Part shown: positions 1 to 53,013 of the stretch, in pieces
Position numbering within the stretch: position 1 is the stretch's first letter
How the letters are laid out: the number at the start of each line of letters is the position of its first letter
DNA from: a virus
DNA length: 53,013 nt
Reading direction: 5' to 3' (one strand)
IMG/VR virus record: IMGVR_UViG_3300030380_002303
Location: 1 to 53,013 of that record
Translations under genes and position numbers: made by a program
Notes under the pieces: generated by a model
Told to the model about the DNA's origin: nothing
Seen by the model: the letters and a program-made list of their open reading frames with translations, nothing else
The model's database searches: none

Positions 1-50
1 TTCAATCCCGGCTCAAGTAATTTAGCAAATTGCGCTCTATTCATAGACAT
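1..50 (-). CDS. major capsid protein, N-terminal fragment cut by the window edge
   Basis: Only the first 16 codons (MSMNRAQFAKLLEPGL) plus two bases of the next codon lie inside the window. They are identical at DNA level to the start of the complete gene at 51544-52455. There is no second complete capsid gene, so this fragment is best read as the place where the circular map closes, not as a second copy. The ribosome site (aaggagag) lies just upstream, in the 12-base gap after the decoration gene. Confidence 0.9.
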   Translation of the reverse strand, partial: MSMNRAQFAKLLEPGL

Positions 51-608
51 AAATTACTCTCCTTATATTCCTGCAGTAGCTTTTAATAAGTGCTCATTAA
101 TGAGTACTTCAAGCTGTGCATATTGAGCAAAACTATTAGATGGGTCTTCCCATAAACCAATAACTTTGCATGTTGCTGTTCCAGTGCTTGTGGTTCCTGC
201 TAAGTCAAAACCAGATTGACCTGTTGTTGTTGAACCTGCACCAGCTACTACGTCAGCACATGCACCAACATCTGTTTGTGCAGGTGTGCCTTCTGATTGT
301 ATTCTAAACACAATATATGGGTCATCATACACATAAGCCACAATATCTGTAGCCACTGTGCCTGACGGCCAAAATTTTGAATACACATATTCTCCATCAC
401 TTGCAGTGTATGAAACCCCTGCAAATACACCTATATTATTTGTTTCTGCTGCAGTATGAGGTGTGATTACACCATCTGTTGTCAACACACATAGGTCACC
501 AGTAAAAATATTTTCTGCTAGACCTGATGTTATAGTATATTTGTTTGCTCTTGGGGCATTACCACTCATATGACGGACTACCTTAAAACCATAAGGTGCA
601 TTAGGATT
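1..608. repeat. left copy of a 608-bp direct terminal repeat, diverged from the right copy
   Basis: Bases 1-608 align without gaps to 52406-53013. Bases 1-76 and 541-608 are identical, while about 60 mismatches are concentrated in 77-540, inside the decoration gene; overall identity is about 90 percent by hand count. A replicated terminal redundancy would be identical, so this looks like the overlap of a circular or permuted genome assembled from a mixed population carrying two alleles. A true duplication is the alternative. Confidence 0.9.
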
Positions 609-3009: not shown

Positions 3010-3366
3010 ATGCAGACTACATTAAATACAAATATAACAGGTAAGGGTAATTATAGAGATTATGTTAATAAAGCTCCACACCCTACAAATTCATATTTTA
3101 ATTTTGAAAGACAATCTTCAAAAAAACATATGTTTGGTTGGAATACAGATGTTCCTGCTTGGAATATACAATTTACATTAGATGGTTATAATTATAAGAC
3201 TGTCGGTGTTATAACTGTCTTTTCAGATGGTGTTATGGGTTCTTTAGATGATACAACAAATTCTTTAATGAATGTATCTGGTAAAGACCCTTTTGAGTTA
3301 TTTGTTGAATTAGTAAATAAAGCTAATTTTGATAAATTAGAAGATAAATTTAGTGTTAAATATTAA
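3010..3366 (+). CDS. unknown protein of the inserted rightward cassette
   Basis: 118 aa, soluble, mixed alpha/beta by appearance, with aromatic-rich middle (HMFGWNTDVPAWNIQF, about residues 40-55). No domain recognised. It has its own operator-promoter and the phage early box agggagaaaacaaa before the ATG, and lies opposite to all surrounding late genes. It is therefore probably expressed early or independently of the virion genes. It could be an accessory host-takeover or exclusion gene, but nothing in the sequence shows this. Confidence 0.7.
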   Translation: MQTTLNTNITGKGNYRDYVNKAPHPTNSYFNFERQSSKKHMFGWNTDVPAWNIQFTLDGYNYKTVGVITVFSDGVMGSLDDTTNSLMNVSGKDPFELFVELVNKANFDKLEDKFSVKY

Positions 3367-3380
3367 TAGGGAGAAAACAA

Positions 3381-3611
3381 ATGAAAGATAAAATTACAAA
3401 ATCAGAAGCAAAGAAACTCTGTGAGCAACAGGGTTTCACTCTTGATGTGTTAAATCAAATGTTTGATGTTACACGAGAACCTAGAAAATATACATTTACA
3501 GTAGAAAATGAAAGACAATTTGCCATCAAGGTTCTAAATCCAATTTCAAATTTAAATCAAAGAGAAAGGGAAAGAGTATTGCAAAGAGCAATAAAAATGA
3601 ATAGGATTTAA
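3381..3611 (+). CDS. small unknown protein of the inserted cassette
   Basis: 76 aa, charged, with a predicted helix-rich N-terminus (KSEAKKLCEQQGFTLDVLNQMF). The ATG follows the box gggagaaaacaa closely, 14 bases after the preceding stop, so it is co-transcribed with the 118-aa gene. The C-terminal LNQRERERVLQRAIKM is a basic amphipathic helix. A small DNA- or protein-binding regulator is possible. Function not recognised. Confidence 0.65.
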   Translation: MKDKITKSEAKKLCEQQGFTLDVLNQMFDVTREPRKYTFTVENERQFAIKVLNPISNLNQRERERVLQRAIKMNRI

Positions 3612-15424: not shown

Positions 15425-16853
15425 ATAGTGTTAATCTCTTTCTTTCTACAATTTCATCTTCATCATAATCTGTAGAATGTGTAATAAACCAACCTTTTCT
15501 CAACCTTAACCATGCTTGAGTACATGTGTCAACTATATCATCATTATCTCCAGTTGGAAAGGCTGAACATATATCAATTAAATTTTTAGCCCATTTTCTT
15601 CCTGCAGGATAAAATATACGACCATCTTCTAACAAGGCTGAACATGCGTGTGCTCTTGCTTGTTTATCTCTATCTGGCATATATTCTAATACTGGTACTC
15701 CTGCCATTCTTAAATCTTGTAATAAACTTTGACCACTTGCCTTTTTCTCTATTAATACAACATCTGGTTCGTAATCTTCATATGCTTCTTGAGCAATCCT
15801 TCTTAAATCTGGATAATTAACTCTATCATACCACATTTCAATTACAATCGCATTATAATATCCATTTCTTTTAAAAACTCCCCATGTTGTTCTTGCAGAA
15901 TAACTAGATGCTTCTTTTGTAGAATATGCTGTATCATATGATTGTATTAGATATTCTATGTTTGGTAAATCTTCTTCCCATGGTTCCCACCATTCTGCTT
16001 TTAATATACCACCACCTTTTGGCATTGGTCTTTGTTGCAATTGACCAGATGCACCATAAGAACCTAAACTTGTTTCTAAATTCTTTAATGTTTTTTCATC
16101 TATTCTTGATGACCATAATAATTCACCTTCTTTTTTTCTAGGGTCAATAAAGCCAAGACTTGATTTTACTGGTGTAGGGTGTGTTTCTTCATATCTTGCA
16201 GGTAAACATAAATGGTCCCAATCTTTGTATTCATTGGATAATATATGACCTGTTAAATCATTTTCATGTACACGTTGCATTATAATTATAAATGCACCAT
16301 TTTTAGGGTCATTTAATCTTGTTTGCATAGCTTGGTCCCACCAATCTAATACACCTTGTCTTACAACACCAGATTCTGCTTCTCTTACATTGTGTGGGTC
16401 ATCTATTAATATTATATCACCACCTTCACCTGTTAATGCACCATCAACTGATGTAGCTATTCTTTGTCCTGTTTTATCATTTTCAAATCTTTGTTTTTGA
16501 TTTTGGTCGGTTGTAAGACTAAATATTTCACCAAAATATTCTTTATACCATTGGCTTTCTATTAATCTTCTACATTTAACACTATCTCTTATTGATAAAG
16601 ATAAGGCATAACTTGCAAATAAAAACTTTTTTGTAGGGTCTATTGTCCATGTCCAAGCAGGTAATGCTACCGAAACAGATATAGATTTCATATGCCTAGG
16701 TGGTATATTTATAATTAATCTTTTTATATCTCCATTAACAACAGCTTGTAAATGGTCAGATATTGCATCTATGTGCCAATTATCATTATAAATTCTGTTA
16801 GGCTCAATTGTTTGCCATGCTTCTTTGATGAACAATTTGAGGGAGCGCCTCAT
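15417..16853 (-). CDS. terL: terminase large subunit
   Basis: 478 aa from the start chosen here. ATPase part: a deviant Walker A (PPRHMKS, residues 51-57) after a beta strand LIINI, and Walker B IILIDDPHN. Nuclease part: IQSYDTAYS (first Asp), VLIEKKASGQSLLQDL, and DNDDIVDTCTQAW with the last acidic residues of the RNase H-like fold. This is the two-domain motor that cuts and pumps DNA into the head. Upstream in-frame ATGs to 16922 exist, but ATG 16853 follows gccgagaaa and gives the usual family start (FIKEAWQTIEPNRIYNDNWHIDAI). It overlaps TerS by 50 bases. Confidence 0.9.
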   Translation of the reverse strand: MRRSLKLFIKEAWQTIEPNRIYNDNWHIDAISDHLQAVVNGDIKRLIINIPPRHMKSISVSVALPAWTWTIDPTKKFLFASYALSLSIRDSVKCRRLIESQWYKEYFGEIFSLTTDQNQKQRFENDKTGQRIATSVDGALTGEGGDIILIDDPHNVREAESGVVRQGVLDWWDQAMQTRLNDPKNGAFIIIMQRVHENDLTGHILSNEYKDWDHLCLPARYEETHPTPVKSSLGFIDPRKKEGELLWSSRIDEKTLKNLETSLGSYGASGQLQQRPMPKGGGILKAEWWEPWEEDLPNIEYLIQSYDTAYSTKEASSYSARTTWGVFKRNGYYNAIVIEMWYDRVNYPDLRRIAQEAYEDYEPDVVLIEKKASGQSLLQDLRMAGVPVLEYMPDRDKQARAHACSALLEDGRIFYPAGRKWAKNLIDICSAFPTGDNDDIVDTCTQAWLRLRKGWFITHSTDYDEDEIVERKRLTLYG

Positions 16854-17298
16854 TTTCTCGGCTCTCACTTGGTTCAACGATAGCATGTTTAAGCACTCGT
16901 TCAATGGTGTTGAGGTCATCATCTGTTAATTTACTAATGTCTAGCACCTTTCTTTCTTCAATATTTATGTCCTGTGTAATCTCATGTCTATCTCGTTGAC
17001 CAAGAATTTGTTTGCCAAGCCATATTGCCATTGGTGTTGAATTTGTTTCTTCCATTATCTGTATTTGTTTTCTTCTTAATGACAACATACCTGTTGCACG
17101 ACCTTTTAGTATTGATTCTCTTACTTCATTATCATTTGTAAATTTATCTTCTAATGTTCTTAATGGTATATTGAAATAAAAAGCTATTTCTGGCATTGTA
17201 CAATTTAATCGTGACAATTTTTCTAATTCATTTAAATTTAGCTCTGTTTTTGGTCTTCCTACTTTTTTCTGAATTTTTTTAGCCTTTGTTTTTTTCAT
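16804..17298 (-). CDS. terS: putative terminase small subunit
   Basis: 164 aa. A basic N-terminus is followed by a helix-turn-helix-like segment: LEKLSRLNCTMPEIAFYFNIPLRTLEDKFTND (about residues 26-57). A helical oligomerisation region (ATGMLSLRRKQIQIMEETNSTPMAIWLGKQILGQRDR) and an acidic C-terminus complete the protein. This is the architecture of small terminases, which recognise phage DNA for packaging. It is the first gene after the leftward late promoter and directly precedes TerL. Assignment is by architecture and position rather than close similarity. Confidence 0.75.
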   Translation of the reverse strand: MKKTKAKKIQKKVGRPKTELNLNELEKLSRLNCTMPEIAFYFNIPLRTLEDKFTNDNEVRESILKGRATGMLSLRRKQIQIMEETNSTPMAIWLGKQILGQRDRHEITQDINIEERKVLDISKLTDDDLNTIERVLKHAIVEPSESRENEALPQIVHQRSMANN

Positions 17299-17438
17299 CT
17301 TCTTTTCATTCTTTCATTTATGTATTTTTGATAAAAATAGTTACTTATTTTGCTAAATATTCCATGTAATTTTAAATAAAATTTTTCCACCTTTTTTTAT
17401 ATACCACGAAAATTATTTATTTATCAACACAAAAAATG
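17299..17438 (-). promoter_or_regulatory. leftward late promoter region
   Basis: This 140-bp gene-free gap between the glycosyltransferase and TerS genes carries, on the minus strand, TTGATA (17427-17422) and TATATA (17403-17398) separated by 18 bases. The bases before the -35 read acattttttgtgt, a degenerate half of the ACACA-N3-TGTGT operator of the early promoters. It is the best candidate to drive the long late transcript; about 100 bases of leader would follow. Confidence 0.6.
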
Positions 17439-18794
17439 TCATTGTTTTTGCCAGAAAGCCTTATTTTTATAGAATCTTTGTATATATCCTAATTCATATA
17501 AAGCTAAATTAGCCTTAAACATTGGCATTGATTGAGTTTTACTTAATCCACAATCTCTTATCATTTTTTCTACATCAGATAATTCTAATTGTTTTCTATT
17601 GTTGATTACTTTAAGAAAACCCTGTTTGTTATGTTCTTTCATGCCTGTGAATACATTTTTTCTAATTAAAGATGAAAACAATTCATGTAATTTATCTACA
17701 TAATCATCAACATTAAATGTTTTTGCTCTTTCTTGATTTTTATAACCATAATTTTTATTTACATCTTTGTTCTTAATTAAATGTATTAATTTTTCTTTCT
17801 GTTCATTTTCAGAATTAAATAATTGCCAATTATCTTTACCTAATAATTCTGGCATTGTTGTTCTATTAGGAACTATTGTAGATAATCCATAAAACATGCT
17901 CTCTAATATAGATATACAAAATGTTTCATGTTGTGAATTAAATGTATTTGAATGACATTTAGGTATTTCATTTAGATATAATTCTTTTGTAGGTAAATCT
18001 TTAACCATTACATATGGCTTTTCATTAATAATATTAATTCTATCGCCACCTGCTTTAGTTACCAATACATTGAATTTATATCCTTCATCATATAATTGGT
18101 CAAATACCTCAAATGTCGTTCTCCAATTTTTATAATCTTGAAATCTATGATTAAATAAGAATGTAAATTTATCGTATTTTTCTACGTTTTTATATTTATA
18201 ATTTTTATCAAAGAAACCAAATTTTAATATTTTTCTCTTTTCACTGATTTTATTCTCAAGATTAGGTAAATATTCTCTTATATTATCTAATGTCATGTTC
18301 CAACAATGGTCAGAATTAAATAAATTGACATCAGCACAATAATCTCCACACAATTGCATAAATACAAAATGTAAATTAGGTTCTAATGGATATGGTAAAC
18401 TCTCATGTAAGATATAATGATGTTGATTAACAACAGTTGGCACCATATGAAAATTTGCCATAAAATATTTTAACTGTGGTGCTAATTCTGGTATCTGATT
18501 CCATATTAAATAAGGTCCATATGTATCATATATTTTTTTAATAAAGAATGTATCAAAATGGATATTATTTTGTTTTTTACCCTGTGGTATTGCCTGTGGT
18601 ATTCTTAATATGTTTGGTAATCTAAAAAAGCCATCATCATAATATCTAAAACCTTTTGATGCAGGAAATGGCATTAAGAATGAATATTGAGGATATTTTT
18701 CTTCAAATTTAGTTATTACAGAAGAAAGAAACACATAATTACTATCAGAATTGATTGTTTGAACAGACCACATTGGGTTTACAAATATAATCAT
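17439..18794 (-). CDS. GT4-like (GT-B fold) glycosyltransferase
   Basis: 451 aa. The C-terminal nucleotide-sugar-binding half shows the group-1/GT4 signature: SQHETFCISILESMFYGLSTIVPNRTTMPELLG (about residues 287-319), with the E-x7-E-type pair. An N-terminal Rossmann-like half and a ~75-residue helical C-terminal extension (from about 375) complete it. No membrane segment. It ends the replication operon, right after a ParB-like gene, unlike LPS- or fibre-glycosylating genes that sit with tail genes. Substrates could be phage DNA bases or host glycans; the sequence does not decide. Confidence 0.75.
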   Translation of the reverse strand: MIIFVNPMWSVQTINSDSNYVFLSSVITKFEEKYPQYSFLMPFPASKGFRYYDDGFFRLPNILRIPQAIPQGKKQNNIHFDTFFIKKIYDTYGPYLIWNQIPELAPQLKYFMANFHMVPTVVNQHHYILHESLPYPLEPNLHFVFMQLCGDYCADVNLFNSDHCWNMTLDNIREYLPNLENKISEKRKILKFGFFDKNYKYKNVEKYDKFTFLFNHRFQDYKNWRTTFEVFDQLYDEGYKFNVLVTKAGGDRINIINEKPYVMVKDLPTKELYLNEIPKCHSNTFNSQHETFCISILESMFYGLSTIVPNRTTMPELLGKDNWQLFNSENEQKEKLIHLIKNKDVNKNYGYKNQERAKTFNVDDYVDKLHELFSSLIRKNVFTGMKEHNKQGFLKVINNRKQLELSDVEKMIRDCGLSKTQSMPMFKANLALYELGYIQRFYKNKAFWQKQ

Positions 18795-18795
18795 A

Positions 18796-19386
18796 TCACA
18801 TGCCTTGATTTGTATTTAATAATTTTTCTAATGCTTGTTCATTTGAATTTACATCAGAATGATTATCTACATATTTATTTAATAATCCCACTACATGTTG
18901 ATATTTATCTAAATCTTCATATGAAAACACTATTGATTTTGTATATTTATCTTGTTCAACAACTAAATCATTAAATTGCAAATCATCATTTTCTGTATCA
19001 AAATCTAATAAATTTTCTAATTCTGTTTTCTCAAAACCTGTTAATTGTAAATCAAATTTAAGATTTAATAATTCTTTCAATTCATCACCTAATAAAAAAT
19101 AATCCCATTCTGAATCTTCATTTAATCTATTATCAGCTATTCTTAAGGCTTTTGTTTGTTCATCAGTTAATTTTTGTTTTAAAACTGGAACTTTTTTTAA
19201 TCCTAATTCTTTTGATGCCATTAATCTTGTATGACCAATTATTACAACATCATCTTCATCAACAACTATTGGTTGTGTAAAACCATATTCTTTTATTGAT
19301 TGAGCAATTTTACCTACTTTTTGGTTTTTTCTTGGGTTTTTTTCAAATGGTATTAAATCATTTATTGGTCGCATTTCTACTTGCAT
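18796..19386 (-). CDS. ParB/sulfiredoxin-like domain protein
   Basis: 196 aa. The N-terminal ~100 residues match the ParB N-terminal nuclease/CTPase-like fold: PINDLIPFEKNPRKN, IAQSIKEYGFTQPIVVDEDDVVIIGHTRLMASKELGLKKVPV. GHTRLMAS is the usual GxxR box. The C-terminal part is acidic, with no HTH visible. In phages such proteins often pair with DNA methyltransferases or base-modifying enzymes; here the partner is a glycosyltransferase one base downstream. Catalytic role (nuclease, NTPase or kinase) is unknown. Confidence 0.8.
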   Translation of the reverse strand: MQVEMRPINDLIPFEKNPRKNQKVGKIAQSIKEYGFTQPIVVDEDDVVIIGHTRLMASKELGLKKVPVLKQKLTDEQTKALRIADNRLNEDSEWDYFLLGDELKELLNLKFDLQLTGFEKTELENLLDFDTENDDLQFNDLVVEQDKYTKSIVFSYEDLDKYQHVVGLLNKYVDNHSDVNSNEQALEKLLNTNQGM

Positions 19387-19394
19387 TATTCCTC

Positions 19395-19622
19395 CTAAAA
19401 TAAATTTATCTGATTATCTTCATCTACTATAACACCTTTTTCCTCTATCTGTTTGTTTTTCATAAATTTTTCATATGTTATAGTTTCTGATTGCATTTTG
19501 TCATATAATTTTTTATCTACAGATTTAACCCAATCCATTAATTCTTCAAATGCCTTATCTACTTGTTCTTGCTGTTTTTTTGTAAGACCATTATCAAATA
19601 TATCGTGCATTGTTTTACTCAT
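19395..19622 (-). CDS. small helical protein ending in a sliding-clamp-binding-like motif
   Basis: 75 aa from the start chosen here, helical and charged (KKQQEQVDKAFEELMDWVKSV). The last residues DNQINLF match the bacterial beta-clamp-binding consensus QL(S/D)LF at Q, L and F. ATG 19622 overlaps the stop of the upstream ORF (ATGAGTAA), which argues for this start; an in-frame ATG at 19694 would add 24 residues and clash with that ORF. As the phage has no DNA polymerase, a clamp-binding adapter in the replication operon makes sense. Function is inferred from the tail only. Confidence 0.55.
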   Translation of the reverse strand: MSKTMHDIFDNGLTKKQQEQVDKAFEELMDWVKSVDKKLYDKMQSETITYEKFMKNKQIEEKGVIVDEDNQINLF

Positions 19623-19767
19623 ATTTTGATAACCTTTTACAATTACATTTTGATTTGAAACCATATCCCCAAAATGGAAACCAAATGTATTCATTACAAT
19701 TATAACATTGTAGTGATGTATTATATGGTGGTTTAATTTTAACAGTATATTTTATTGTTTTATTCAT
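19615..19767 (-). CDS. 50-aa zinc-ribbon-like protein
   Basis: 50 aa, MNKTIKYTVKIKPPYNTS then LQCYNCNEYIWFPFWGY and KSKCNCKRLS. The Cys pattern C-x2-C-x17-C-x-C could bind one zinc. Its ATG overlaps the stop of the primase-helicase gene (ATGAATAA) and its stop overlaps the start of the next gene, so it fills the apparent gap in the operon exactly. No strong ribosome site, consistent with coupled translation. Role unknown. Confidence 0.5.
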   Translation of the reverse strand: MNKTIKYTVKIKPPYNTSLQCYNCNEYIWFPFWGYGFKSKCNCKRLSKYE

Positions 19768-21487
19768 AACATCTTGTTCTATAATTAAAATTAAATTCTC
19801 TTTGACCTATTTCTCCATAAATACCTTGTTCTCTAATTTTTCTTGTAATAATTTTGGTTATATTTTCTTCAAAATCTCTATGAATAACTAATCCTACATC
19901 ACACATATTAGCCCAATGTGCAGAGCCACTTACTTGATACAAATCTGGTGGTGGTAAAACTCCTGCATCATTTCTTTGTAATTTATGTGGGTGAGCAACC
20001 ATCCAAACTACAACTTGATGATTTCTAGCAAATCGCTGACATTTTGCAATTATGTCCCTAATGTGTTCATCTTCTCTTTTATTATTTTCTCTATCTGCAC
20101 TAATTTGATTAAAAGGGTCAATGACAAGACCTTTGATACCATATCTTTGTTTTGCTGATTTTGCCTTTTGCAAAATATAATCTATTGTTGGTATTACATC
20201 AGATGTTTCTAAAAATTTGAAATGATTATTTAGAAAATCCATACCATCAATTAATTCTTTCTGTGAAATTCTATCATAGGGTCCAATATCAAATGGTTTT
20301 CTACATCTTTTTTCTAACAATCTTCTAATGTGATTTGGTGTTGAATGTTCTGGTGAAAACACAAATAATTTCCAATTTTGTTGTTCTGCTAAATTCATTA
20401 GTATTTGGTCAAGAAAATTAGATTTACCATGATTTGGTATACCTGTTATAAGATTAAATGTAGATGGCATAATTTTGTATATTTCATCTAATTTATCAAA
20501 ACCTGTTGATATGGCTTTCTGTACATTGCCATCATACATATTTTGAATTGTATCTTTATATTCAAATGCAGTATGTAAATCTTCAATTGGAAATTCTTTT
20601 GCATTATAAATACATTCTTTTAATTTATCTTTACCAAATCTTACAAGGCACTCATTTGCATCTTTAACTTGTTTCTCATCTTCTAATGCACTATCTTTGT
20701 ACAGAGGAAAATGGACAACTTTACATATATCCCTGCCAAATCTATGCAACAATTCAAGTTTAAGGGAATTTCCTGCTTCATCATTATCTGTAGCAATGAT
20801 TACTTCTTCAGCATCAAATATCCATTCGCTCTGTTCAAAAGCAGAAAACCTTTTATCTTGCATATCAAATTTTGGTTCTTTCGGTGCACCATCTGGTAAA
20901 CTTACTGTATTTGTAAATCCTGCTTCAATCATTGACAAAACATCAATTTCACCTTCTACAAATATAATTTGTTTCTTTATTGGTGTATCTTCATTTTTAA
21001 GCCAATGTTCATACAAACCATCAATGTTATATAATGTTTTTAATGCATCTTTAGATTGATGAAATCTTTTATCTTTTGTTCTAAATTTTATATTTATAAT
21101 TTCTTTGTTGTAAAAATATGGAAAACATAATTTGTCATTTTGTGTATATAATCCCATAAAATGAGTGGTTGAATGTGTTATTCCTCTTTTTTCTAACCAA
21201 TTTTGTGCTTCATCAGATAATTTTTTATTTTCTGGAACAAATGGAATTACATTCTTTTTTGTTTCATGTGAAACATTTTTTTTCTTAAAATTAGGTGAAT
21301 CATATACAGAACCTTTCCAATCGCAATGATGACAATGCCATATTGCAATATCATGTTCTACATTTATTGATAAACATGCATCATATTTATTTTTTCTAGT
21401 ATGTGAACATTTAGGACAAATTGTTTTTTGTTGTCCATAACTTTGTATCTTAATATTTTCTTGTAATAATTTTTCGTGAATATTCAT
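19760..21487 (-). CDS. DNA primase-helicase (T7 gp4-like)
   Basis: 575 aa. Zinc-binding domain: C24-P-K-C27 and C52-H-H-C55. TOPRIM primase core: VEGEIDVLSM (E178, E180) and ATDNDEAGN (D234, D236). C-terminal DnaB/RecA-like helicase: Walker A GIPNHGKS (349-356), Walker B GLVIDPFN (about 453-460), and a VWMVAHPHK segment. It primes and unwinds phage DNA, as T7 gp4 does. The ATG follows the phage box gggagaaaaca. It is the only replication enzyme recognised besides the initiator-like protein; no polymerase accompanies it. Confidence 0.92.
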   Translation of the reverse strand: MNIHEKLLQENIKIQSYGQQKTICPKCSHTRKNKYDACLSINVEHDIAIWHCHHCDWKGSVYDSPNFKKKNVSHETKKNVIPFVPENKKLSDEAQNWLEKRGITHSTTHFMGLYTQNDKLCFPYFYNKEIINIKFRTKDKRFHQSKDALKTLYNIDGLYEHWLKNEDTPIKKQIIFVEGEIDVLSMIEAGFTNTVSLPDGAPKEPKFDMQDKRFSAFEQSEWIFDAEEVIIATDNDEAGNSLKLELLHRFGRDICKVVHFPLYKDSALEDEKQVKDANECLVRFGKDKLKECIYNAKEFPIEDLHTAFEYKDTIQNMYDGNVQKAISTGFDKLDEIYKIMPSTFNLITGIPNHGKSNFLDQILMNLAEQQNWKLFVFSPEHSTPNHIRRLLEKRCRKPFDIGPYDRISQKELIDGMDFLNNHFKFLETSDVIPTIDYILQKAKSAKQRYGIKGLVIDPFNQISADRENNKREDEHIRDIIAKCQRFARNHQVVVWMVAHPHKLQRNDAGVLPPPDLYQVSGSAHWANMCDVGLVIHRDFEENITKIITRKIREQGIYGEIGQREFNFNYRTRCYE

Positions 21488-21499
21488 TGTTTTCTCCCA

Positions 21500-22129
21500 T
21501 TAACCTACTAATTTATTTAAATTCATTTTTGTTTTTTCGTCAACTGTTTCCCATCTTCTTTGATTTAACCATGTTGTAGCATGAGGTATAAATTTATGGT
21601 CTTTGTCTTTTACACTCTGTTTATATTTAACAGTAAAACTATACAATTCATCAAAATTTAAAATTTTGTCAGTTATCTTTTCAAATAAATCAAATGCCTT
21701 TTTCTTTGAACCATCTTTTCTTGGATAAAGATTCCACCATTCATTAAAATCATCTGTATATACAATATGTTTATTATTAATGGTTACATGGCGTTTCGGT
21801 GTGATACTCACGTGAGTGTCATTCTGATACTGATGAGTGTCAATCTGACACCCTACCTGTAAATAATACATATTTGATGTTTGTCTTTGAGAATCATTTA
21901 AATAATTTTCATATCTTTCTTTTACATTTATAAAATTGTTTTCTTTCAATGATTTAATGCATCTTATAATTGTTGAACGACTTAATTCTGTTATCTGCAT
22001 TAGTGTTTTAAAACTTGGGAAACATTTATTTTCATCATCACAAAAATTAGCTAATGTTAGTAATACTAATTTATTATTACCAGAACCTGTTTTTTGTTTA
22101 GATGCCCAATCTAATGCAGACCAACTCAT
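21500..22129 (-). CDS. replication initiation-like protein (winged helix, lambda O/DnaT-like C-terminus)
   Basis: 209 aa. N-terminal winged helix-turn-helix (LVLLTLANFCDDENKCFPSFKTLMQITELSRSTIIRCIKSLKENNFI, about residues 20-66) of the type found in phage replication proteins. The C-terminal part (FNEWWNLYPRKDGSKKKAFDLFEKI ... FIPHATTWLNQRRW) matches replisome-organiser tails that load helicase. I choose ATG 22129 because it overlaps the upstream stop as ATGA and follows cggag; an in-frame ATG at 22159 lacks a ribosome site. It likely recruits the primase-helicase encoded next. Confidence 0.8.
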   Translation of the reverse strand: MSWSALDWASKQKTGSGNNKLVLLTLANFCDDENKCFPSFKTLMQITELSRSTIIRCIKSLKENNFINVKERYENYLNDSQRQTSNMYYLQVGCQIDTHQYQNDTHVSITPKRHVTINNKHIVYTDDFNEWWNLYPRKDGSKKKAFDLFEKITDKILNFDELYSFTVKYKQSVKDKDHKFIPHATTWLNQRRWETVDEKTKMNLNKLVG

Positions 22130-22449
22130 AAAATCTCCGTGATGATAATTGGTGGACAATATGTTGCTAATATTTTTTTTCTTAAAATATAATCTCTAGT
22201 TTTAGTTATTTTTGATTTAACATCTTCAACAACAACATCACCTTTCCTTGTTTTGTATCTAAAATCGGCAGTATATCTACCTATCTTTTTCCCATTTACC
22301 ATTAAAGGAAATTGTGGTTGTAATTCTAAATTAAAAATCATCCTCTGCATCTCCATTTTTTCAAGAATTAAATATCTTTGTAATTCTTTTTTGCTATCAA
22401 ATTTTTTCCCTTTGTAAATTTGTTTCTTTGCGTTGTATTTGTTCTTCAT
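22126..22449 (-). CDS. DUF1064-like phage endonuclease (PD-(D/E)XK type)
   Basis: 107 aa. Family features: NKYNAKKQIYKGKKFDSKKELQRYLILE (with E22), LELQPQFPL, then RYTADFRYKTRKGDVVVEDVKSK, where D-x(n)-EDxK forms the PD-(D/E)XK catalytic core. The family is fused or related to T7 endonuclease I-type resolvases and found in replication modules. It overlaps the HTH gene by 53 bases and the initiator by 4. It probably resolves branched replication or recombination intermediates. Confidence 0.8.
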   Translation of the reverse strand: MKNKYNAKKQIYKGKKFDSKKELQRYLILEKMEMQRMIFNLELQPQFPLMVNGKKIGRYTADFRYKTRKGDVVVEDVKSKITKTRDYILRKKILATYCPPIIITEIL

Positions 22450-22627
22450 ACAAATCCTGTCCTGTTACTTGTCCATTTGTAAAATCAAATATTTTTTTTG
22501 CATCATCACTTCTTGGCAATCTATCGCCTTTAGCCCATGCTTCTACACTTCTTGGTTTAGTTCCTAATGCCTCTGCAAAGGTTTTATAATTATAATTATT
22601 TGTTTTAATATATTGTTTTAATCTCAT
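22397..22627 (-). CDS. Cro/YdaS-like HTH regulator, nearly leaderless
   Basis: 76 aa. Helix-turn-helix: YNYKTFAEALGTKPRSVEAWAKGDRLPRSDDAKKIFDFTNGQVTGQDLYEE, the classic Cro/YdaS pattern including the A-x3-G turn and the DRLPR segment. It is the first leftward gene of the divergent control region. A TATAAT (22641-22636) ends only 8 bases before the ATG, leaving 0-3 bases of leader, like lambda cI from PRM. A copy of the repeated ACACA-N3-TGTGT operator lies 35-47 bases upstream. It is the natural candidate for the protein that binds this palindrome at all six sites. Confidence 0.85.
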   Translation of the reverse strand: MRLKQYIKTNNYNYKTFAEALGTKPRSVEAWAKGDRLPRSDDAKKIFDFTNGQVTGQDLYEEQIQRKETNLQREKI

Positions 22628-22635
22628 TCTTTATT

Positions 22636-22679
22636 ATTATACCATTTTTTTTTATTTGTAAACACATTTTGTGTTGACA
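22636..22679. promoter_or_regulatory. divergent operator-promoter between the HTH regulator and the recombination operon
   Basis: Palindrome acacattttgtgt (22662-22674), perfect ACACA-N3-TGTGT. Rightward: TTGACA at 22674-22679, with an imperfect -10 (tataaa near 22694, short spacer). Leftward: TTTACA (22662-22657) and TATAAT (22641-22636) with a short 15-base spacer. Both -35 boxes touch the palindrome, so one bound dimer could control both directions. Confidence 0.75.
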
Positions 22680-22719
22680 TATTGGTTTAAATGTATAAAA
22701 ATAAATTAACATAAAGTCC

Positions 22720-22768
22720 GTGGCAACTTAAAGAATTTCGCCTTAACAATTGTTCCTTAGGTTGCCAC
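22720..22768 (+). ncRNA. structured leader of the recombination operon
   Basis: The outer stem gtggcaac (22720-22727) / gttgccac (22761-22768) is a perfect 8-bp helix. It extends by several further pairs (ttaaag / ccttag) and encloses a self-complementary aacaattgtt. It sits in the 5' leader 18 bases before the first gene. It lacks a T-run, so it is not an ordinary terminator; an antitermination, stability or translation-control element is possible. Confidence 0.6.
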
Positions 22769-22786
22769 ATTAACAAAGAAAGAAGA

Positions 22787-23551
22787 ATGAAGATGAAAAG
22801 CAACAATCCATTTTTTAATCACGATATTTTTTGGTTATCTCATAGTTCTATATCTACATGGATTAGTTCACCATCAAAATTTATTGCTCAAAAATTGTTT
22901 AAAATAGATGATTATGGTTCTGCATCAATGCATAGAGGAACAGCATCTGAATATGCATTACATAAAAAATATGAAGAAGGCATATTTGATATACAACATG
23001 CAGAAAATAAATTTACTGAATTATGTAATTTTGGAGGTATAGATTGGGGAGATGCCACAAGATATAAAGAAAATATACAATTAAAAGAATATGGGAATAT
23101 TCTTAACAAAAACTTTAATTATAAAAATTTAGAAACATATCAAGAAAAAATTGAAATACAATTTGATGAATTACCAATACCAATTATTGGCTATATAGAT
23201 TTTGTATTTGATGATGTTGTTGTAGATTTAAAAACAACTGCAAGAATGCCATCAAAAGCAACCGAGTCCAATAAAAGACAAATGGCAATTTATAAAATGC
23301 ATTACAAAGATAAAAAATCAGAAGTGTTTTATGCAACACCAAAAGATTTTAAAGTTTTTAAATTGGATAATTTAGAGATTTACCAAGAACAAATAAAACA
23401 GATTGCTCTTGGCATAATGAAATTCTTATCTATCAGTGATGATAAAGAAGAATTAGCTTCCATGGTTTACCCAGATGTAGATGATTGGAGGTGGTCAGAA
23501 GAAATGATAAATGAAGTAAAACAAAAAGTTCAAGCATGGAGGAATATATGA
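22787..23551 (+). CDS. RecB/Cas4-like PD-(D/E)XK exonuclease
   Basis: 254 aa. SHSSISTWISSPSKFIAQKLF (N-terminal motif typical of this nuclease family), MHRGTASEYALH (motif with conserved His/Gly), and IIGYIDFVFDDVVVDLKTTARMPSK with D...DLK, the catalytic D-(E/D)-x-K. A later Q272-like position is seen as NKRQMAIYKM. It degrades one strand from double-strand ends and feeds the ERF protein encoded next. It is the first gene after the divergent operator. ATG 22793 is an alternative start. Confidence 0.85.
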   Translation: MKMKSNNPFFNHDIFWLSHSSISTWISSPSKFIAQKLFKIDDYGSASMHRGTASEYALHKKYEEGIFDIQHAENKFTELCNFGGIDWGDATRYKENIQLKEYGNILNKNFNYKNLETYQEKIEIQFDELPIPIIGYIDFVFDDVVVDLKTTARMPSKATESNKRQMAIYKMHYKDKKSEVFYATPKDFKVFKLDNLEIYQEQIKQIALGIMKFLSISDDKEELASMVYPDVDDWRWSEEMINEVKQKVQAWRNI

Positions 23552-24117
23552 AGAACGAAGAAAAATTAGCAAAAGACCAAACTATTATTGAAGAAGATGT
23601 AAAAGATGATGCAGATGTTATTGGTATGCCATCAACATTAAATTTATCTCAAGCAATGAATTTGTTTCAACAAAAAAATATTCAAGCAGTAAAAGATAAA
23701 AACAATCCGTTTTTTAAATCTACATATGCTGATTTAACATCTATTATAAATGCAGTAAATCAAGGTGCAGAATATGGATTAGCTTTTTCACAAAGTGTCC
23801 ATTATGAAAGAGTTATTTTAGATAGAAAAAGGGAAGATACACATAAAGATGGAACTGTATCTGTAACAACTGGTCAAGCAATTGAAAGAGATATATATGT
23901 TGAAACATTTGTTTGGCATAAAAGTGATGTTCACAAAGAAGATATACTTACTTGTAGAGTTCCTGTTCTTATAAAAGGTACAGACAAGGATGACCCACAA
24001 AAAATGGGTTCTGCCATCACATATGCAAAAAGATATGGTCTACAAGCATTATTTGGACTCGGTCAAGATGATGATGGAAATTTAGCAAGTGGAAAGGGCA
24101 AAAAAGATGAACAGTAA
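23548..24117 (+). CDS. erf: ERF-family single-strand annealing recombinase
   Basis: 189 aa. Family signatures: NPFFKSTYADLTSIINAVN (about residues 49-67), then GSAITYAKRYGLQALFGLGQDDDGN (about 154-178), the hallmark C-terminal box of ERF. It forms rings that anneal complementary single strands, as in P22. The start overlaps the exonuclease stop as ATGA with ggagg five bases ahead. Together with the exonuclease and the SSB-like protein it makes a complete annealing-type recombination set. Confidence 0.88.
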   Translation: MKNEEKLAKDQTIIEEDVKDDADVIGMPSTLNLSQAMNLFQQKNIQAVKDKNNPFFKSTYADLTSIINAVNQGAEYGLAFSQSVHYERVILDRKREDTHKDGTVSVTTGQAIERDIYVETFVWHKSDVHKEDILTCRVPVLIKGTDKDDPQKMGSAITYAKRYGLQALFGLGQDDDGNLASGKGKKDEQ

Positions 24118-24544
24118 AACATATGATAATACCAATAGTGGTGTTTTATGGTCAATACCGAAAGATAATGAAAATAAACCAGAAATGTCATTGATACAAC
24201 AAGGTAAATTAAACATAAATGGTAATGAAATGAGAATTGTTGGCATAAAAAGATTAAATAAAGATGGTCAAGAAATGGTTGGATTATATCGTGAAATTGG
24301 CACAATAAAAGAAAATGCTAAAAAATTTTCAGACAAAGACCCAGATGCTAAAGGTGTTGTTAATAATATTGTTGATGATGGTGGATTTACTTGTTCTGCA
24401 TGGAAAAGTGTATCTGAAAAAAACAATCATTATGTAAGTCTTAAAATAAGAGCATTTGATGAAAGACCAGAACAACAAGAAACCACAGAATCAGAAGATA
24501 AAGAAATAGACACGTCTAATTTAGATGATGATATACCATTTTAA
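24107..24544 (+). CDS. SSB-like single-stranded-DNA-binding protein
   Basis: 145 aa. The last residues DDDIPF exactly reproduce the acidic interaction tail of bacterial SSB proteins. The body has strand-like segments (KLNINGNEMRIVGIKRL, FTCSAWKSVSE, HYVSLKIRAF), compatible with an OB fold, but not close to E. coli SSB. The start at 24107 follows aaaggg and overlaps the ERF stop by 11 bases. It probably coats ssDNA and recruits host or phage replication proteins through the tail. Confidence 0.75.
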   Translation: MNSKTYDNTNSGVLWSIPKDNENKPEMSLIQQGKLNINGNEMRIVGIKRLNKDGQEMVGLYREIGTIKENAKKFSDKDPDAKGVVNNIVDDGGFTCSAWKSVSEKNNHYVSLKIRAFDERPEQQETTESEDKEIDTSNLDDDIPF

Positions 24545-24555
24545 AGGAGGAAATT

Positions 24556-24867
24556 ATGCAGATAAAAGACTTAATTTTAAGTGAAGTGCAATCACACCCA
24601 CGAAGTACAAGGTCTGATGCACCAATAGGTTCTGAAAATCTTTCACAAGAAGAAAATGTAAAAAGATATTTAGAACAAATGAACATGATAACACCTTATT
24701 ATGCCTTAAATGTCTATGGTGCATTTAGATTAAGTGCCATTATTTTTAATTTAAGAAAAGAAGGTTTAGATATAATTACTGAATTAGTTACATCAAAAGG
24801 TAAAACATTTGCCTGTTACATGTTAAAGGCAAGATATGAAGAATTACAAACACAAGCCAATTCGTAA
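24556..24867 (+). CDS. HTH_55-like winged helix protein
   Basis: 103 aa. The middle, ITPYYALNVYGAFRLSAIIFNLRKEGLDIITELV (about residues 46-79), fits the HTH_55 pattern: two helices, a LR-x-G recognition helix and a beta wing (SKGKTFACYML). The gene follows the SSB-like gene with ribosome site aaaggagga. Such proteins occur in phage early regions as putative DNA-binding factors in replication or regulation. Its target is unknown. Confidence 0.7.
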   Translation: MQIKDLILSEVQSHPRSTRSDAPIGSENLSQEENVKRYLEQMNMITPYYALNVYGAFRLSAIIFNLRKEGLDIITELVTSKGKTFACYMLKARYEELQTQANS

Positions 24868-25285
24868 TAAAAATTTTATGATATTTGTAGCGAATAAACC
24901 ATGTTCGTTACAAAATCATTCTTCTTATAGATGTAGTGGTGGTGTACAAGCACATCATCTTTTAAAACCATGGGACGGATATCGTGGTATGGGATTAAAA
25001 GCAGGTGATAATAATTGTATGCCACTATGTCAAAGGCATCATGCTCATTTACATGACAAACATGGCAATGAGGACACATTTTGGAGAATATTTAAATTAC
25101 CAGAAGATTATGGTCGTATTGTATCTAAATCTTTATGGCAATCTTTTAATATAGGAGTATCTATGCAAGAAAAATTAGAAAAATTTAGAGAATTAATAAC
25201 TGAAATTGACATATCACAATATAAACAAAGAGAATATGTAATCATTGTAAATTCTATTTATAAAAGTATTTTTGAGGATAAATAA
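24836..25285 (+). CDS. DUF968/REF-like HNH nuclease
   Basis: 149 aa. PCSLQNHSSYRCSGGVQAHHLLKPWDGYRGMGLKAGDNNCMPLCQRHHAHLHDKHGNEDTFW (about residues 22-82): the pattern C ... C ... HHLLK ... GLK-x2-D-x-N-MPLC-x2-HH-x2-LH is that of DUF968/REF recombination nucleases. Their HNH motif is here AHH ... N ... HH. It likely cuts branched DNA or D-loops together with the recombination set. The start has aaagg six bases ahead and overlaps the previous gene by 32 bases. Confidence 0.75.
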   Translation: MKNYKHKPIRNKNFMIFVANKPCSLQNHSSYRCSGGVQAHHLLKPWDGYRGMGLKAGDNNCMPLCQRHHAHLHDKHGNEDTFWRIFKLPEDYGRIVSKSLWQSFNIGVSMQEKLEKFRELITEIDISQYKQREYVIIVNSIYKSIFEDK

Positions 25286-25617
25286 TGCAAGAAATTATTT
25301 CAGAAGAAGATATCCATAAAGCTATGGATTGGTTACAAAAGAGTGCTAATGAATGTGCAAAGGATAAAGCCACATTAGATTATTTAAATGCCTATACAAA
25401 ACCATGTAAGGCTTTATTGATGAAAAAATTTAGTCATTTACCAATTTCAGCACAAACTAGAGAAGCAGAAGCACATGAAGATTATATTAAACATATTGAA
25501 TCAGTAAAAATTGCATCTGAAAAACATTATAAAAATCAATACTTTAGAGAAACTGCACTTGCAAAAATTGAGATATGGAGGACTCAAAATGCAAATTTTC
25601 GTGCAATGAAAATATAA
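25285..25617 (+). CDS. small helical early protein of unknown function
   Basis: 110 aa, highly helical and charged (DIHKAMDWLQKSANECAKDKATLDYLNAYTKPCKALLMKKF). Its C-terminal half has regularly spaced Glu, Ala and Lys, compatible with a coiled coil. Overlaps the HNH gene stop by one base. This type of protein follows DUF968-like genes in other phage early operons in my recollection; no function is known to me. Soluble, probably cytoplasmic. Confidence 0.6.
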   Translation: MQEIISEEDIHKAMDWLQKSANECAKDKATLDYLNAYTKPCKALLMKKFSHLPISAQTREAEAHEDYIKHIESVKIASEKHYKNQYFRETALAKIEIWRTQNANFRAMKI

Positions 25618-25650: not shown

Positions 25651-25680
25651 TTGACCTATCTCCTACCTATGTAATTATAT
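25651..25680 (+). promoter_or_regulatory. early promoter lacking the palindrome
   Basis: TTGACC (25651-25656) with TTATAT (25675-25680, 18-bp spacer) or TATAAT at 25678-25683. The bases ahead of the -35 are aaaaaaagag instead of the ACACA-N3-TGTGT palindrome. It precedes the gene at 25713. It therefore serves as an internal contrast to the six palindrome promoters. Confidence 0.5.
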
Positions 25681-25712: not shown

Positions 25713-25934
25713 ATGATAATAGAACTTTACGAAGACGTTAAACAATTAGATAAAGCTAAACATAATTTAATTTTAGCTCTAAATAATCATAATTCAAATA
25801 CAACTAAAGAAGATATCAAAAATGCTTTTGATATTATTGCTTATATGATTTCTACAAAAGAATCAGAAATTACAAAGATACAAGATGAACATAATAGACG
25901 TTCATTAGAAGATTTATTAGGGAGGAAAATCTAA
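25713..25934 (+). CDS. small early helical protein
   Basis: 73 aa, alpha-helical, charged (YEDVKQLDKAKHNLILALNNHN ... HNRRSLEDLLGRKI). The ATG follows the phage early box gggagaaaacaa. No membrane segment, Cys or recognisable motif. It is the first gene after the promoter at 25651 and is followed by two coupled genes. Function unknown. Confidence 0.6.
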   Translation: MIIELYEDVKQLDKAKHNLILALNNHNSNTTKEDIKNAFDIIAYMISTKESEITKIQDEHNRRSLEDLLGRKI

Positions 25935-27420: not shown

Positions 27421-27462
27421 ACACATTATGTGTTGACATATATGTATTTATAATTATATAAT
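27421..27462 (+). promoter_or_regulatory. early operator-promoter
   Basis: Palindrome acacattatgtgt (27421-27433, perfect ACACA-N3-TGTGT) fused to TTGACA (27433-27438), with TATAAT at 27457-27462 (18-bp spacer). It precedes the gene at 27493 by about 20 bases of leader carrying the gggagaaaac box. Confidence 0.8.
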
Positions 27463-27492
27463 ATATATATAATGTTTTTAGGGAGAAAACGA

Positions 27493-27849
27493 ATGTTAAA
27501 AATAACTTTAAAATATATAGAAGAAGATAAAGGATATCCTTTAACAGATTGGGAAAAGGAATATTGTTATCAAAATATAACTTCAATTATGCAATATCGA
27601 AAAGAGATGGTGTATCAATCTATATCAGATATTTCAAAAGAATTAACTGGTTGTAGACATAGACTTGATATTGATAAATATACTCTTGTAGAATTACAAT
27701 CTATTCTTGATGATTATATTCAACAGAATAAAAAAATAAATCAAAGAATTGCAGACAAACAAGCTGAAAATTTTGTTAAGAATAAATTATTAGCAAAAAG
27801 TATTGGTGTTTCAATTGAGGATTTAATCAAATGGGAAGTGGCTTATTAA
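27493..27849 (+). CDS. small early protein of unknown function
   Basis: 118 aa, alpha-helical and charged, with a C-terminal segment KLLAKSIGVSIEDLIKWEVAY that could pack as a small helical hairpin. The start at 27493 is preferred because the phage box gggagaaaacga lies just ahead of it; an in-frame ATG at 27472 falls at the likely transcription start. Driven by its own palindrome promoter. No family recognised. Confidence 0.6.
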   Translation: MLKITLKYIEEDKGYPLTDWEKEYCYQNITSIMQYRKEMVYQSISDISKELTGCRHRLDIDKYTLVELQSILDDYIQQNKKINQRIADKQAENFVKNKLLAKSIGVSIEDLIKWEVAY

Positions 27850-29146: not shown

Positions 29147-29239
29147 TAATTATGCAGATTCTAAATTATTTAATTAATTAAGATTCATAACTAGAATTTT
29201 ATATTAAAATAAAAAAATTTATTTGTCCATATTTTTTTA

Positions 29240-29302
29240 GGACTGGCACTGAGTTCGATTTGGATTCCAGAAGCAGTTCGAATCCAATTCCAGACTGAGT
29301 CC
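29240..29302. other. 63-bp imperfect palindrome in the 29.1-29.4 kb gap
   Basis: Outer arms ggact / agtcc, inner perfect arms ttggattc (29260-29267) / gaatccaa (29280-29287) with a 12-base loop, and actgag present in both halves. It is noticeably less AT-rich than the flanks. It lies in a 291-bp non-coding gap before an early promoter. It might be a structured RNA, a replication or recombination site, or a protein-binding site. I could not fit a tRNA cloverleaf. Confidence 0.55.
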
Positions 29303-29329
29303 AACTAATAAAAAATAGTTTAAAAAAGA

Positions 29330-29370
29330 ACACATTATGTGTTGACTTTTATAATTATAAATATTATAAT
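29330..29370 (+). promoter_or_regulatory. early operator-promoter
   Basis: Palindrome acacattatgtgt (29330-29342, perfect) fused to TTGACT (29342-29347), with TATAAT at 29365-29370, exactly 17 bp later. It drives the small gene at 29405. Confidence 0.85.
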
Positions 29371-29404: not shown

Positions 29405-29629
29405 ATGATTTATTCTTATGATGCAATTGATAAAATTGAAAATTTTTCTGATGAACAAGTAATACAATTTTATCATAATGCTTATGAAACATTCGTTTTT
29501 GCTTTAGGACATTCTAAAGGACAACGTAATGAATTTGCGAAGAATTTTTACAAAGAAGAACTCGCAAAAAGAGGTATTAAAAACATACCTGATAGAAAAG
29601 GTGTTTTTAATGGTAGTGGAACTTCTTAA
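29405..29629 (+). CDS. small early protein of unknown function
   Basis: 74 aa, soluble. A central helix (EQVIQFYHNAYETFVFALGHSKGQRNEFAKNFYKEELAKRG) looks like the core. Ribosome box gggagaaaacaat precedes the ATG. It is a single-gene unit: own promoter with palindrome and own terminator 17 bases after the stop. Function unknown; such single-gene early units usually encode host-takeover factors, which is inference. Confidence 0.65.
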   Translation: MIYSYDAIDKIENFSDEQVIQFYHNAYETFVFALGHSKGQRNEFAKNFYKEELAKRGIKNIPDRKGVFNGSGTS

Positions 29630-29645
29630 CAAACAGAATAAAATT

Positions 29646-29669
29646 GAGGGATTAATTTCCCTCTTTTTT
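29646..29669 (+). terminator. intrinsic terminator
   Basis: Stem gaggga / tccctc (6 bp) with a 6-base loop, followed by tttttt. It closes the single-gene unit and lies only about 11 bases before the next operator-promoter. Confidence 0.8.
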
Positions 29670-29679: not shown

Positions 29680-29720
29680 ACACAATATGTGTTGACATTT
29701 AGAATTATAAATATTATAAT
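29680..29720 (+). promoter_or_regulatory. early operator-promoter
   Basis: Palindrome acacaatatgtgt (29680-29692, perfect) fused to TTGACA (29692-29697), with TATAAT at 29715-29720 after 17 bp: the best match to consensus of all copies. Confidence 0.88.
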
Positions 29721-29752: not shown

Positions 29753-30193
29753 ATGACAATAAAAATAACAAAAAAAATAAACAAAATAAAAATTGATGAT
29801 ATACCATTAATTCAAACTGTTTTTGCAAAAAGATGGTATTGTGGAAAGTATGAATATCATAGTTTAGCAGGAGGAGCACCAGACAAATGCAAACCTATTG
29901 GAATATTTACAAGTCCAAAAAATAATAAACAATACATGATATTAAAAGGATTTGATAAAGGTTGCATGGTTAGATTTGCAACATATTATAATGTTGTTGA
30001 ATTACATTCTGAAATTCATACTAATGAGATTGAATATAATAAATTCAATAACCCATTGGAGAAATTACAATTTGATACAATTTTAGATGAAAATATTGGT
30101 TTGTATTCCCAAAAAAGATTTCCTAATCTTAATGAAATTAAATATTATTTTGAAAATACAGAACAATTTAAATTTTTTGAATCTAAATTATAA
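29753..30193 (+). CDS. early protein of unknown function
   Basis: 146 aa, soluble. The middle segment (WYCGKYEYHSLAGGAPDKCKPIGIFTSPKNNKQYMILKGFDKGCMVRF) has three Cys, and several strands can be imagined, so a small beta-rich fold is possible. The ATG follows gggagaaaacaa. It has its own palindrome promoter, and the next palindrome begins immediately after its stop codon. Not recognised. Confidence 0.6.
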   Translation: MTIKITKKINKIKIDDIPLIQTVFAKRWYCGKYEYHSLAGGAPDKCKPIGIFTSPKNNKQYMILKGFDKGCMVRFATYYNVVELHSEIHTNEIEYNKFNNPLEKLQFDTILDENIGLYSQKRFPNLNEIKYYFENTEQFKFFESKL

Positions 30194-30236
30194 ACACAAA
30201 ATGTGTTGACTTATTAACCAATTAATATAATATAAT
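30194..30236 (+). promoter_or_regulatory. early operator-promoter
   Basis: Palindrome acacaaaatgtgt (30194-30206, perfect) fused to TTGACT (30206-30211). Candidate -10 boxes tataat at 30226 or 30231 have non-ideal spacing (14 or 19 bp), so this copy may be weaker or need its regulator. It drives the last three rightward genes. Confidence 0.7.
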
Positions 30237-30262: not shown

Positions 30263-30508
30263 ATGACACCACAAGAAAAAGAATATAATCAATATCTTAA
30301 AGATAACATTACACATTATCTTGTAAGTGAATTTCTAGGCAGAGGTCAATACAGAAAGACAAAATTTATCTCTTTTAACAAAGCAAAATGTTTTTATTTT
30401 TCTTTGAAAGAAGATAATCCTATTTGTCAATGTGCATTATATGGCATATCAGAGCCTAAAGACAAATTATATCCTATCAATGTATTGATGGAGAATTTAG
30501 ATGTATAA
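30263..30508 (+). CDS. small early protein
   Basis: 81 aa, soluble, aromatic-rich (YNQYLKDNITHYLVSEFLGRGQYRKTKFISFNKAKCFYFSL). Three Cys in the middle (CFYF, CQC). Box gggagaaacaa ahead of the ATG. First of three overlapping genes; its stop overlaps the start of the next by 8 bases. Function unknown. Confidence 0.6.
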   Translation: MTPQEKEYNQYLKDNITHYLVSEFLGRGQYRKTKFISFNKAKCFYFSLKEDNPICQCALYGISEPKDKLYPINVLMENLDV

Positions 30509-52455: not shown

Positions 52456-53013
52456 AAATTACTCTCCTTATATTCCTGCAGTTTGCTTGAGGATATGCTC
52501 ATTAATGAGTACTTCAAGCTGTGCATATTGAGCAAAACTATTTGATGGGTCTTCCCACAATCCAATAATTTTACATGTTGCTGTTCCATTAGACATAGTT
52601 CCACTTAAATCAAAGCCAGATTGACCTGTTGTTGTAGAACCTGCTCCTGCTACGACATCAGCATTTGAGCCAACATCTGTTTGTGCAGGAGTGCCTGCTG
52701 ATTGTATTCTAAAAACAGTGTATGGGTCATCATACACATAAGCCACAATATCTGTAGCAACTGTGCCTGATGGCCAAAATTTTGAATACACATATTCTCC
52801 ATCACTTGCAGTGTATGAAACCCCTGCAAATACACCTATATTATTAACTTCTGTTGCAGTATGCGGTGTGATTACACCATCTGCAGTAAGAATTACAAGG
52901 TCTCCAGTAAAAATGTTTTCTGCTAGACCTGATGTAATAGTATATTTGTTTGCTCTTGGGGCATTACCACTCATATGACGGACTACCTTAAAACCATAAG
53001 GTGCATTAGGATT
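52406..53013. repeat. right copy of the 608-bp terminal repeat, variant allele
   Basis: Aligns without gaps to 1-608 (offset 52405) with about 60 mismatches. The first 76 bases (capsid start and intergenic site) and the last 68 bases are identical, while the decoration gene between them is diverged. Many changes are at third codon positions, but about 18 residues change too, so both alleles look functional and selected. Confidence 0.9.
52468..53013 (-). CDS. capsid decoration/structural protein, allele 2 (two residues cut at window edge)
   Basis: 181 aa visible; only the first two codons (Met, Ala in allele 1) are missing at the edge. Same family as 63-614, with differences such as VILTADG for VLTTDG-type positions, TEVNN for AETNN, and ILKQTAGI for LLKATAGI at the end. 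It sits 12 bases upstream of the complete capsid gene. Two alleles at one locus suggest a surface protein under diversifying pressure. Confidence 0.75.
   Translation of the reverse strand, partial: NPNAPYGFKVVRHMSGNAPRANKYTITSGLAENIFTGDLVILTADGVITPHTATEVNNIGVFAGVSYTASDGEYVYSKFWPSGTVATDIVAYVYDDPYTVFRIQSAGTPAQTDVGSNADVVAGAGSTTTGQSGFDLSGTMSNGTATCKIIGLWEDPSNSFAQYAQLEVLINEHILKQTAGI

Follow-up and report, generated by a model that had tools for sequence, protein, structure and literature searches.

The window, a 53,013-base stretch of viral DNA (31% GC) that constitutes one whole IMG/VR record, carries the short palindrome ACACA-N3-TGTGT fused to TTGAC[A/T] promoters, which raises the question of whether this element is the operator of one regulator and which protein would bind it, in a kind of virus, the uncultured marine phages, whose promoters and regulators are largely unmapped. 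The ends of the window (1-608 and 52406-53013) match each other with 90.7% identity over ca. 610 bp, and because of this overlap the window very probably represents a complete phage genome of ca. 52.4 kb that is circularly permuted or terminally redundant. In the record's classification the genome is linear and free of end repeats, despite the overlapping ends. Plus-strand genes occupy 22.8 to 30.8 kb and code for a PD-(D/E)XK nuclease, an ERF annealing protein, DUF968/HNH and DUF932 proteins, and short unknown genes. Nearly all remaining genes are on the minus strand, where the first, at 22,627, codes for a 76-aa helix-turn-helix (HTH) protein, followed in order by the resolvase, replication initiator, primase/helicase, ParB-like, terminase, portal, and structural genes. 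The terminase shares 75% identity with its counterparts in the Roseobacter phages CRP-901 and CRP-902; the CRP-901 genome is likewise 53,013 bp in length, which appears to be a coincidence. Among cultured phages no close relative of the early module turned up, since neither the nuclease nor a 437-aa early protein matched anything in the phage collection.

A motif search over the full window located the element at 2920, 22662, 27421, 29330, 29680, and 30194, and these coordinates, as well as the overlap of each copy with a -35 box, agreed with the original prediction. The five perfect copies it had counted, ACACA-N3-TGTGT at all positions except 2920, compare with 0.13 on average, and never more than 1, in 300 dinucleotide-shuffled sequences. 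The looser form ACAC-N5-GTGT was observed 6 times versus 0.48 expected from dinucleotide shuffles, and all six copies, each oriented on the plus strand, run directly into TGAC[A/T], completing a TTGAC[A/T] -35 box. ACAC-N5-GTGT-TGAC[A/T] is thus a better consensus than the original one, as it occurs exactly six times in the window, each time fused to a -35 box. Likewise, ACAC-N5-GTGTTGAC was found six times in the window and not once in 300 shuffles. Eight copies of GTGTTGAC are present in total, six at the operator sites and two on the other strand as GTCAACAC (481 and 44458), and in both of the latter the left arm is absent.

Four of the sites lie in or downstream of the recombination operon, each before a short gene. 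The operator ACACATTATGTGT at 27421-27433 is followed by a -35 box (27433-27438), a TATAAT -10 box (27457-27462), and the gene 27472-27849, and the same operator sequence recurs at 29330-29342 with a TTGACT -35 box (29342-29347), TATAAT (29365-29370), and the gene 29405-29629. The third, ACACAATATGTGT at 29680-29692, has its -35 box at 29692-29697 and TATAAT at 29715-29720 and precedes the gene 29753-30193, and the fourth, ACACAAAATGTGT at 30194-30206, has a TTGACT -35 box (30206-30211) and TATAAT (30231-30236) before the gene 30263-30508. Most promoters had been said to have a good -10 box at 17 to 18 bp; five possess TATAAT (four sites, with spacers of 17 to 19 bp) or TATTAT (2920, with a spacer of 18), while the spacer at 30194 measures 19 bp and the -10 box at 22662 is poor (AAAAAT, spacer 17). 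An intrinsic terminator-like hairpin (29646-29663 plus a T-run) is situated immediately upstream of the 29680 operator. Just upstream of the 29330 operator, the intergenic region 29235-29305 holds a 65-nt structured stretch (z -2.8) with a tRNA T-arm-like GTTCGAATCC, in which ARAGORN called no tRNA and Rfam gave no match; nor did Rfam match anything over the whole window.

The remaining noncentral site, ACACTTTTTGTGT at 2920-2932, has a variant core and is followed by a -35 box (2932-2937) and TATTAT (2956-2961); it serves the small genes 3010-3366 and 3381-3611, which are embedded in the late region. We considered whether it is a decayed copy and rejected this, because the same core recurs at the central position in L177/L178/L181-L184 (AACACTTTTTGTGTTGACATA), a lineage sister to this one, and 2920 is therefore a valid variant.

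Could the repetition reflect copying of promoters rather than an operator? In that case a promoter-and-leader block would have been duplicated before small genes, and the palindrome would be an upstream extension of a host-preferred -35 region. The 29330 and 29680 promoters, which have a common spacer and leader, are clearly recent copies of each other, and GGGAGAAAACAAATG leaders are shared between promoters, but the other promoters are not copies of this kind. Over the six sites, mean pairwise identity was 89% for the left arm with its flanking A and 100% for the right arm versus 53% for the centre (whose bases are always A/T), 44% for the upstream flank, and 51% for the promoter spacer, and this difference indicated that the arms are conserved beyond simple promoter-block duplication. 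Moreover, promoters of this kind also serve lineages whose operators have other letters, and the promoter at 25651 has the leader without the palindrome. Duplication without an operator is, in our judgement, highly improbable.

The 25651 promoter (GTTGACC; -35 box TTGACC at 25651-25656, plus strand) drives the gene 25713-25934 and had been singled out as an early promoter without the palindrome. We confirmed this, although the GGGAGAAAACAAATG leader common to the operator-bearing promoters is present, and the operator is equally lacking from the corresponding promoters of lineages B and C (defined below). The segment 25651-25700 is a conserved early unit, apparently unregulated. It had further been reasoned that finding the palindrome at numerous host housekeeping promoters would point to a sigma-factor preference of the host. 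Scanning 84,980 species genomes of bacteria and archaea (257 Gb) for ACAC-N5-GTGTTGAC[A/T] plus TATAAT revealed 63 contigs, mostly from Clostridia, with one copy each; none of the 63 was an alphaproteobacterium by title. With no block repeated in these genomes and with the contrast provided by 25651, a host sigma preference was rejected.

The central operator, ACACATTTTGTGT within TGTAAACACATTTTGTGTTGACA (22662-22674, plus strand), is symmetrically set between two divergent -35 boxes. One of them, TTGACA at 22674-22679 on the plus strand, belongs to the promoter of the early recombination operon (22787-25617, plus strand; PD-(D/E)XK nuclease, ERF annealing protein, DUF968/HNH, and others). The other, a -35-like TTTACA at 22657-22662, points away on the minus strand and is spaced by 15 bp from a likely extended -10 box, TGGTATAAT read on the minus strand (22636-22641), of the HTH gene (22397-22627, minus strand). 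The start codon of this gene would lie ca. 8 nt past the -10 box, and its mRNA may have hardly any leader. Downstream of the HTH gene are replication and packaging genes (16804-22449, minus strand) for the resolvase, replication initiator, primase/helicase, ParB-like nuclease, and terminase small subunit.

The 76-aa protein, our candidate regulator, is of the Cro/C1 type: it matched the Pfam HTH_3 profile with 24.1 bits (cut-off, 23), and 7 of 15 relatives matched the profile at E ≤ 0.01. Its AlphaFold model (mean pLDDT, 93.6) predicted a five-helix fold (residues 3-9, 14-21, 25-33, 40-49, and 56-75), with helix 3 (25-33) as the recognition helix. The nearest solved folds in Foldseek were the YdaS N-terminal domain, the LexA-like 2kpj, and SinR, with P22 Cro and Xfaso Cro ranking lower; the probability was ca. 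1 for YdaS, SinR, and CylR2, and none reached E ≤ 0.001. A sequence search of the PDB with the HTH profile gave no match better than E = 0.012. In the 84,980 bacterial and archaeal genomes no relative of the HTH family was confirmed, so this search supplied no pointer to the host.

To compare operators between phages, we gathered relatives by HTH, nuclease, and DUF932 searches and obtained several uncultured phage lineages with the same gene order, i.e., A (the window, L124, and L125), B (L176-L178 and L181-L184), C (L193-L196, L063, and L033), E (L126 and L127), F (L185-L192, L211, L213, L219, and L224), G (L197), H (L128 and L198-L200), and M (L221 and L223). The exact motif ACACANNNTGTGTTGACW was found in at least 119 stretches of viral contigs, which by a rough estimate is about the chance level for the collection; exact-motif matches were therefore used only from genomes that had repeats or a -10 box. 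The divergence between the HTH and nuclease genes reads AACACATTTTGTGTTGAC in lineage A, AACACTTTTTGTGTTGAC in B, AACACATTAAGTGTTGAC in C, AACACATTTAAGGTTGAC in E, AACACAAAAAAGGTTTAC in F, AACATATTTTAAGGGTTTAC in L128, and AACCTATTTTAGGGTTGA in L197, and in L198/L200 and L199 it contains AACC and GGG halves wider apart. All relatives with an HTH protein at least 59% identical have an operator-like site at this divergence, and most of those below 59% have a partial site, though not L201 or L179. The distant HTH relatives L203 to L205, in other contigs, show TGTTGAC/GTAAACA boxes that overlap ahead of the gene in the opposite arrangement.

Orthologous sites were also detected at small-gene promoters, namely those of the 27472 type (L063:7688 and L033:74), the 30263 type (L063:9444 and L033:1772), and the 3010/3381 type (L036:1723 and L104:6390). 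In L197, three small-gene promoters carry AACATCATTTNAGGG-TTGACA, and GGG-TTTACT is present at several promoters of L217, L218, L220, and L223. Lineage F (L211 type) has T/AACCTTNNNTGTGTT, also written T/AACCTTNNNTGTGTTGAC, at the small-gene site, and its central site is the same word read on the other strand, AACCTT-N3-TGTGTT, the window sites being AACACA-N3-TGTGTT. Overall, in the better-sampled lineages the sites of a genome share one sequence, which differs between lineages as AACAC/GTGTT versus AACCC/GGGTT. Letters that are common within most genomes and different between lineages indicated a trans-acting factor. Thus, the proposal of a phage-wide operator for one regulator is well supported by sequence comparison in its trans-acting part, with orthologous sites in several lineages that are coherent within most genomes, but two-fold symmetry did not hold everywhere. 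Clean symmetry is confined to the close lineages of the window and to single sites elsewhere, and in the GGGTT lineages it is clear in some sites alone (L223 AAACCCTATTTAAGGGTTT; partly L197 and L198).

Which protein, then, would read these sites? The adjacent HTH protein is most likely the regulator, and we regard it as the best candidate because its gene always flanks the central site, its predicted fold is that of Cro/C1 proteins, and its recognition helix shifts with the half-site. Residue 30 of the helix is Ala or Ser in lineages with GTGTT half-sites and Lys, Arg, or Met where most half-sites read GGGTT, and in an alignment by eye it occupies the position of Gln33 of 434 repressor, a base-contacting residue. 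The tree places all Ala/Ser-30 proteins in one group (support 80/90, drawn as an open fork), and the covariation of residue 30 with the half-site therefore counts as one event. This single clade split tempers the assignment of the adjacent protein, made in the original prediction and supported in part by the location of its gene, its fold, and the helix shift. L221, with Met30, has mixed right halves (GTG, GGG, and CGG) at variable spacing. Lineages E and F combine one GTGTT half with one AACCT half, though in recognition helix they match lineage C entirely or nearly so, and the whole operator is not common to these three lineages of almost identical helix.

Alternatively, the element could be the operator of another DNA-binding protein, either of the phage, for example the adjoining replication initiator (21500-22159), which matches families that include HTH DNA-binding proteins, or of the host, a regulator whose site the phages copy. 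Genome-to-genome variation of the sites could then track differences between hosts. Initiators of the O/DnaD type, however, act at origins and not at many promoters, no contig of the 84,980 species genomes contained the promoter block in repeated form, and the site always borders the HTH gene. We therefore regard a different binder as distinctly unlikely.

The sites and promoters, their conservation, and their variation among relatives are computed results; binding by the HTH protein, its dimeric state, and its repressive effect are what we infer. The element is probably the operator of a dimeric Cro/C1-type regulator of the phage, likeliest the 22397-22627 protein, which would function as a Cro-like autoregulated repressor shutting the six promoters. 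Made from the divergent promoter beside the central operator, the protein would control its own gene together with the early operon, so that one dimer at the central site could control both genome arms. Its further targets would be the four short units at 27421, 29330, 29680, and 30194 and the small-gene unit inside the late region (2920). The bound protein would exclude sigma region 4, and the near-consensus promoters would be turned off as it accumulates. Early and accessory genes would in this way be silenced as replication starts, in a timing switch of the lytic cycle like that of lambda Cro.

Two observations speak against repression. The poor -10 box at 22662 suggests that this promoter might need activation, and every operator extends over the first base of its -35 box, its centre lying ca. 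-41 to -43 from the expected start, as estimated from the spacers. Class II activators sit at the same distance, e.g., lambda cI at PRM. The same HTH protein might accordingly activate from this operator through contact with sigma region 4, or might do both, as a repressor of its own gene and an activator of the small genes. The location of the centre at all six sites and the weaker TTTACT -35 boxes in some relatives, along with the central -10 box, fit such activation, but five of the six window promoters are near consensus (TTGAC[A/T] plus TATAAT or TATTAT) and would not need an activator, and the proteins are small, single-domain, and Cro-like. We consider activation rather unlikely, if less so than a different binder, and retain the repressor.

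The proposed repressor resembles lambda Cro, a small single-domain HTH protein that is encoded at a divergent early promoter and acts at the operators of OR and OL, which overlap promoters, with autoregulation and early shut-off. The window shares with lambda the small single-domain HTH protein at a divergent early promoter, operators over promoters, proposed autoregulation, and a probable early shut-off; it differs in having one operator per promoter and six dispersed promoters, compared with the clustered triples of lambda, and in that no CI partner or integrase was found. The c1 repressor of P1 acts at many single operators over the phage genome, located at promoters; these are asymmetric 17-mers that serve lysogeny. 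Single operators are scattered over promoters of separate units in the window too, whereas those of its lineage are palindromic and there is no sign of lysogeny. Mycobacteriophage L5 and other cluster A phages have dispersed, directionally oriented sites whose sequence differs between related phages along with the repressor, and the L5 stoperators are asymmetric, number 20 to 30 per genome, lie mostly outside promoters, and block elongation (PMC6550527, PMC9283540). The window sites are similarly dispersed, oriented, and divergent between relatives; unlike stoperators, all six are symmetric and located at -35 boxes, and an L5-type system was excluded on the basis of these promoter-bound symmetric sites.

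Among ca. 55 proteins of the window scanned against PHROGs and/or Pfam, many of them matchless, none was named as an integrase or a CI-type repressor, and the authors of the CRP-901 study judged those phages strictly lytic (PMC10149686). For these reasons, early-to-late timing is favoured over immunity. CRP-901 and CRP-902 (OQ401623 and OQ401624) also have an HTH gene divergent from early genes and a repeated promoter element before small early genes, TTGTAATCTGTGACA-N2-TGTCA followed by a TATA-rich -10 box and an GAGAGAGAGGAA leader, in four copies (L130:12025, 12655, 13274, and 14287) and three copies (L131:12539, 13757, and 14306), respectively. They differ from the window in the element, in the HTH protein, in their GC content of 45%, and in the absence of the element from the HTH divergence; judging from these sequences, the architecture of repeated operator-promoters on small early genes recurs there with other letters. 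The word "promoter" is not used in the CRP-901 paper (PMC10149686). The Pelagibacter phages Skadi and HTVC203P have an HTH gene (protein 36 to 40% identical) divergent from a nuclease and annealing-protein operon, but no ACAC-N5-GTGT or GGGTT operator was seen in their divergent region. The control described here is thus of a known kind, in a previously undescribed phage group.

More tentatively, this uncultured marine phage family may be lytic and use a single minimal Cro-like protein to dim, across the whole genome, small early genes that are transcribed separately, the regulator and every operator shifting letters together as lineages split. The lineages would then form a natural series of regulon re-wiring (AACAC to AACCC, residue 30 from Ala/Ser to Lys/Arg/Met), a possibility that we hold to be somewhat less than even. 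The coherently changed operators of the relatives would make such joint change of a regulator and its multiple sites testable with small proteins and 30-bp duplexes, and sequence alone sufficed to obtain a complete six-promoter regulon and its candidate regulator in a probably complete genome.

The leader of the early operon (22705-22780), which links the central promoter to the nuclease gene, contains a strong hairpin, GTGGCAACTTAA...TTAGGTTGCCAC, with a folding energy of -20.1 kcal/mol (z -4.5). L126 and L178 have a near-identical hairpin, L127 and L213 have an unrelated stem in its place, and L185-L192 lack it, a distribution that points to a swappable leader element.
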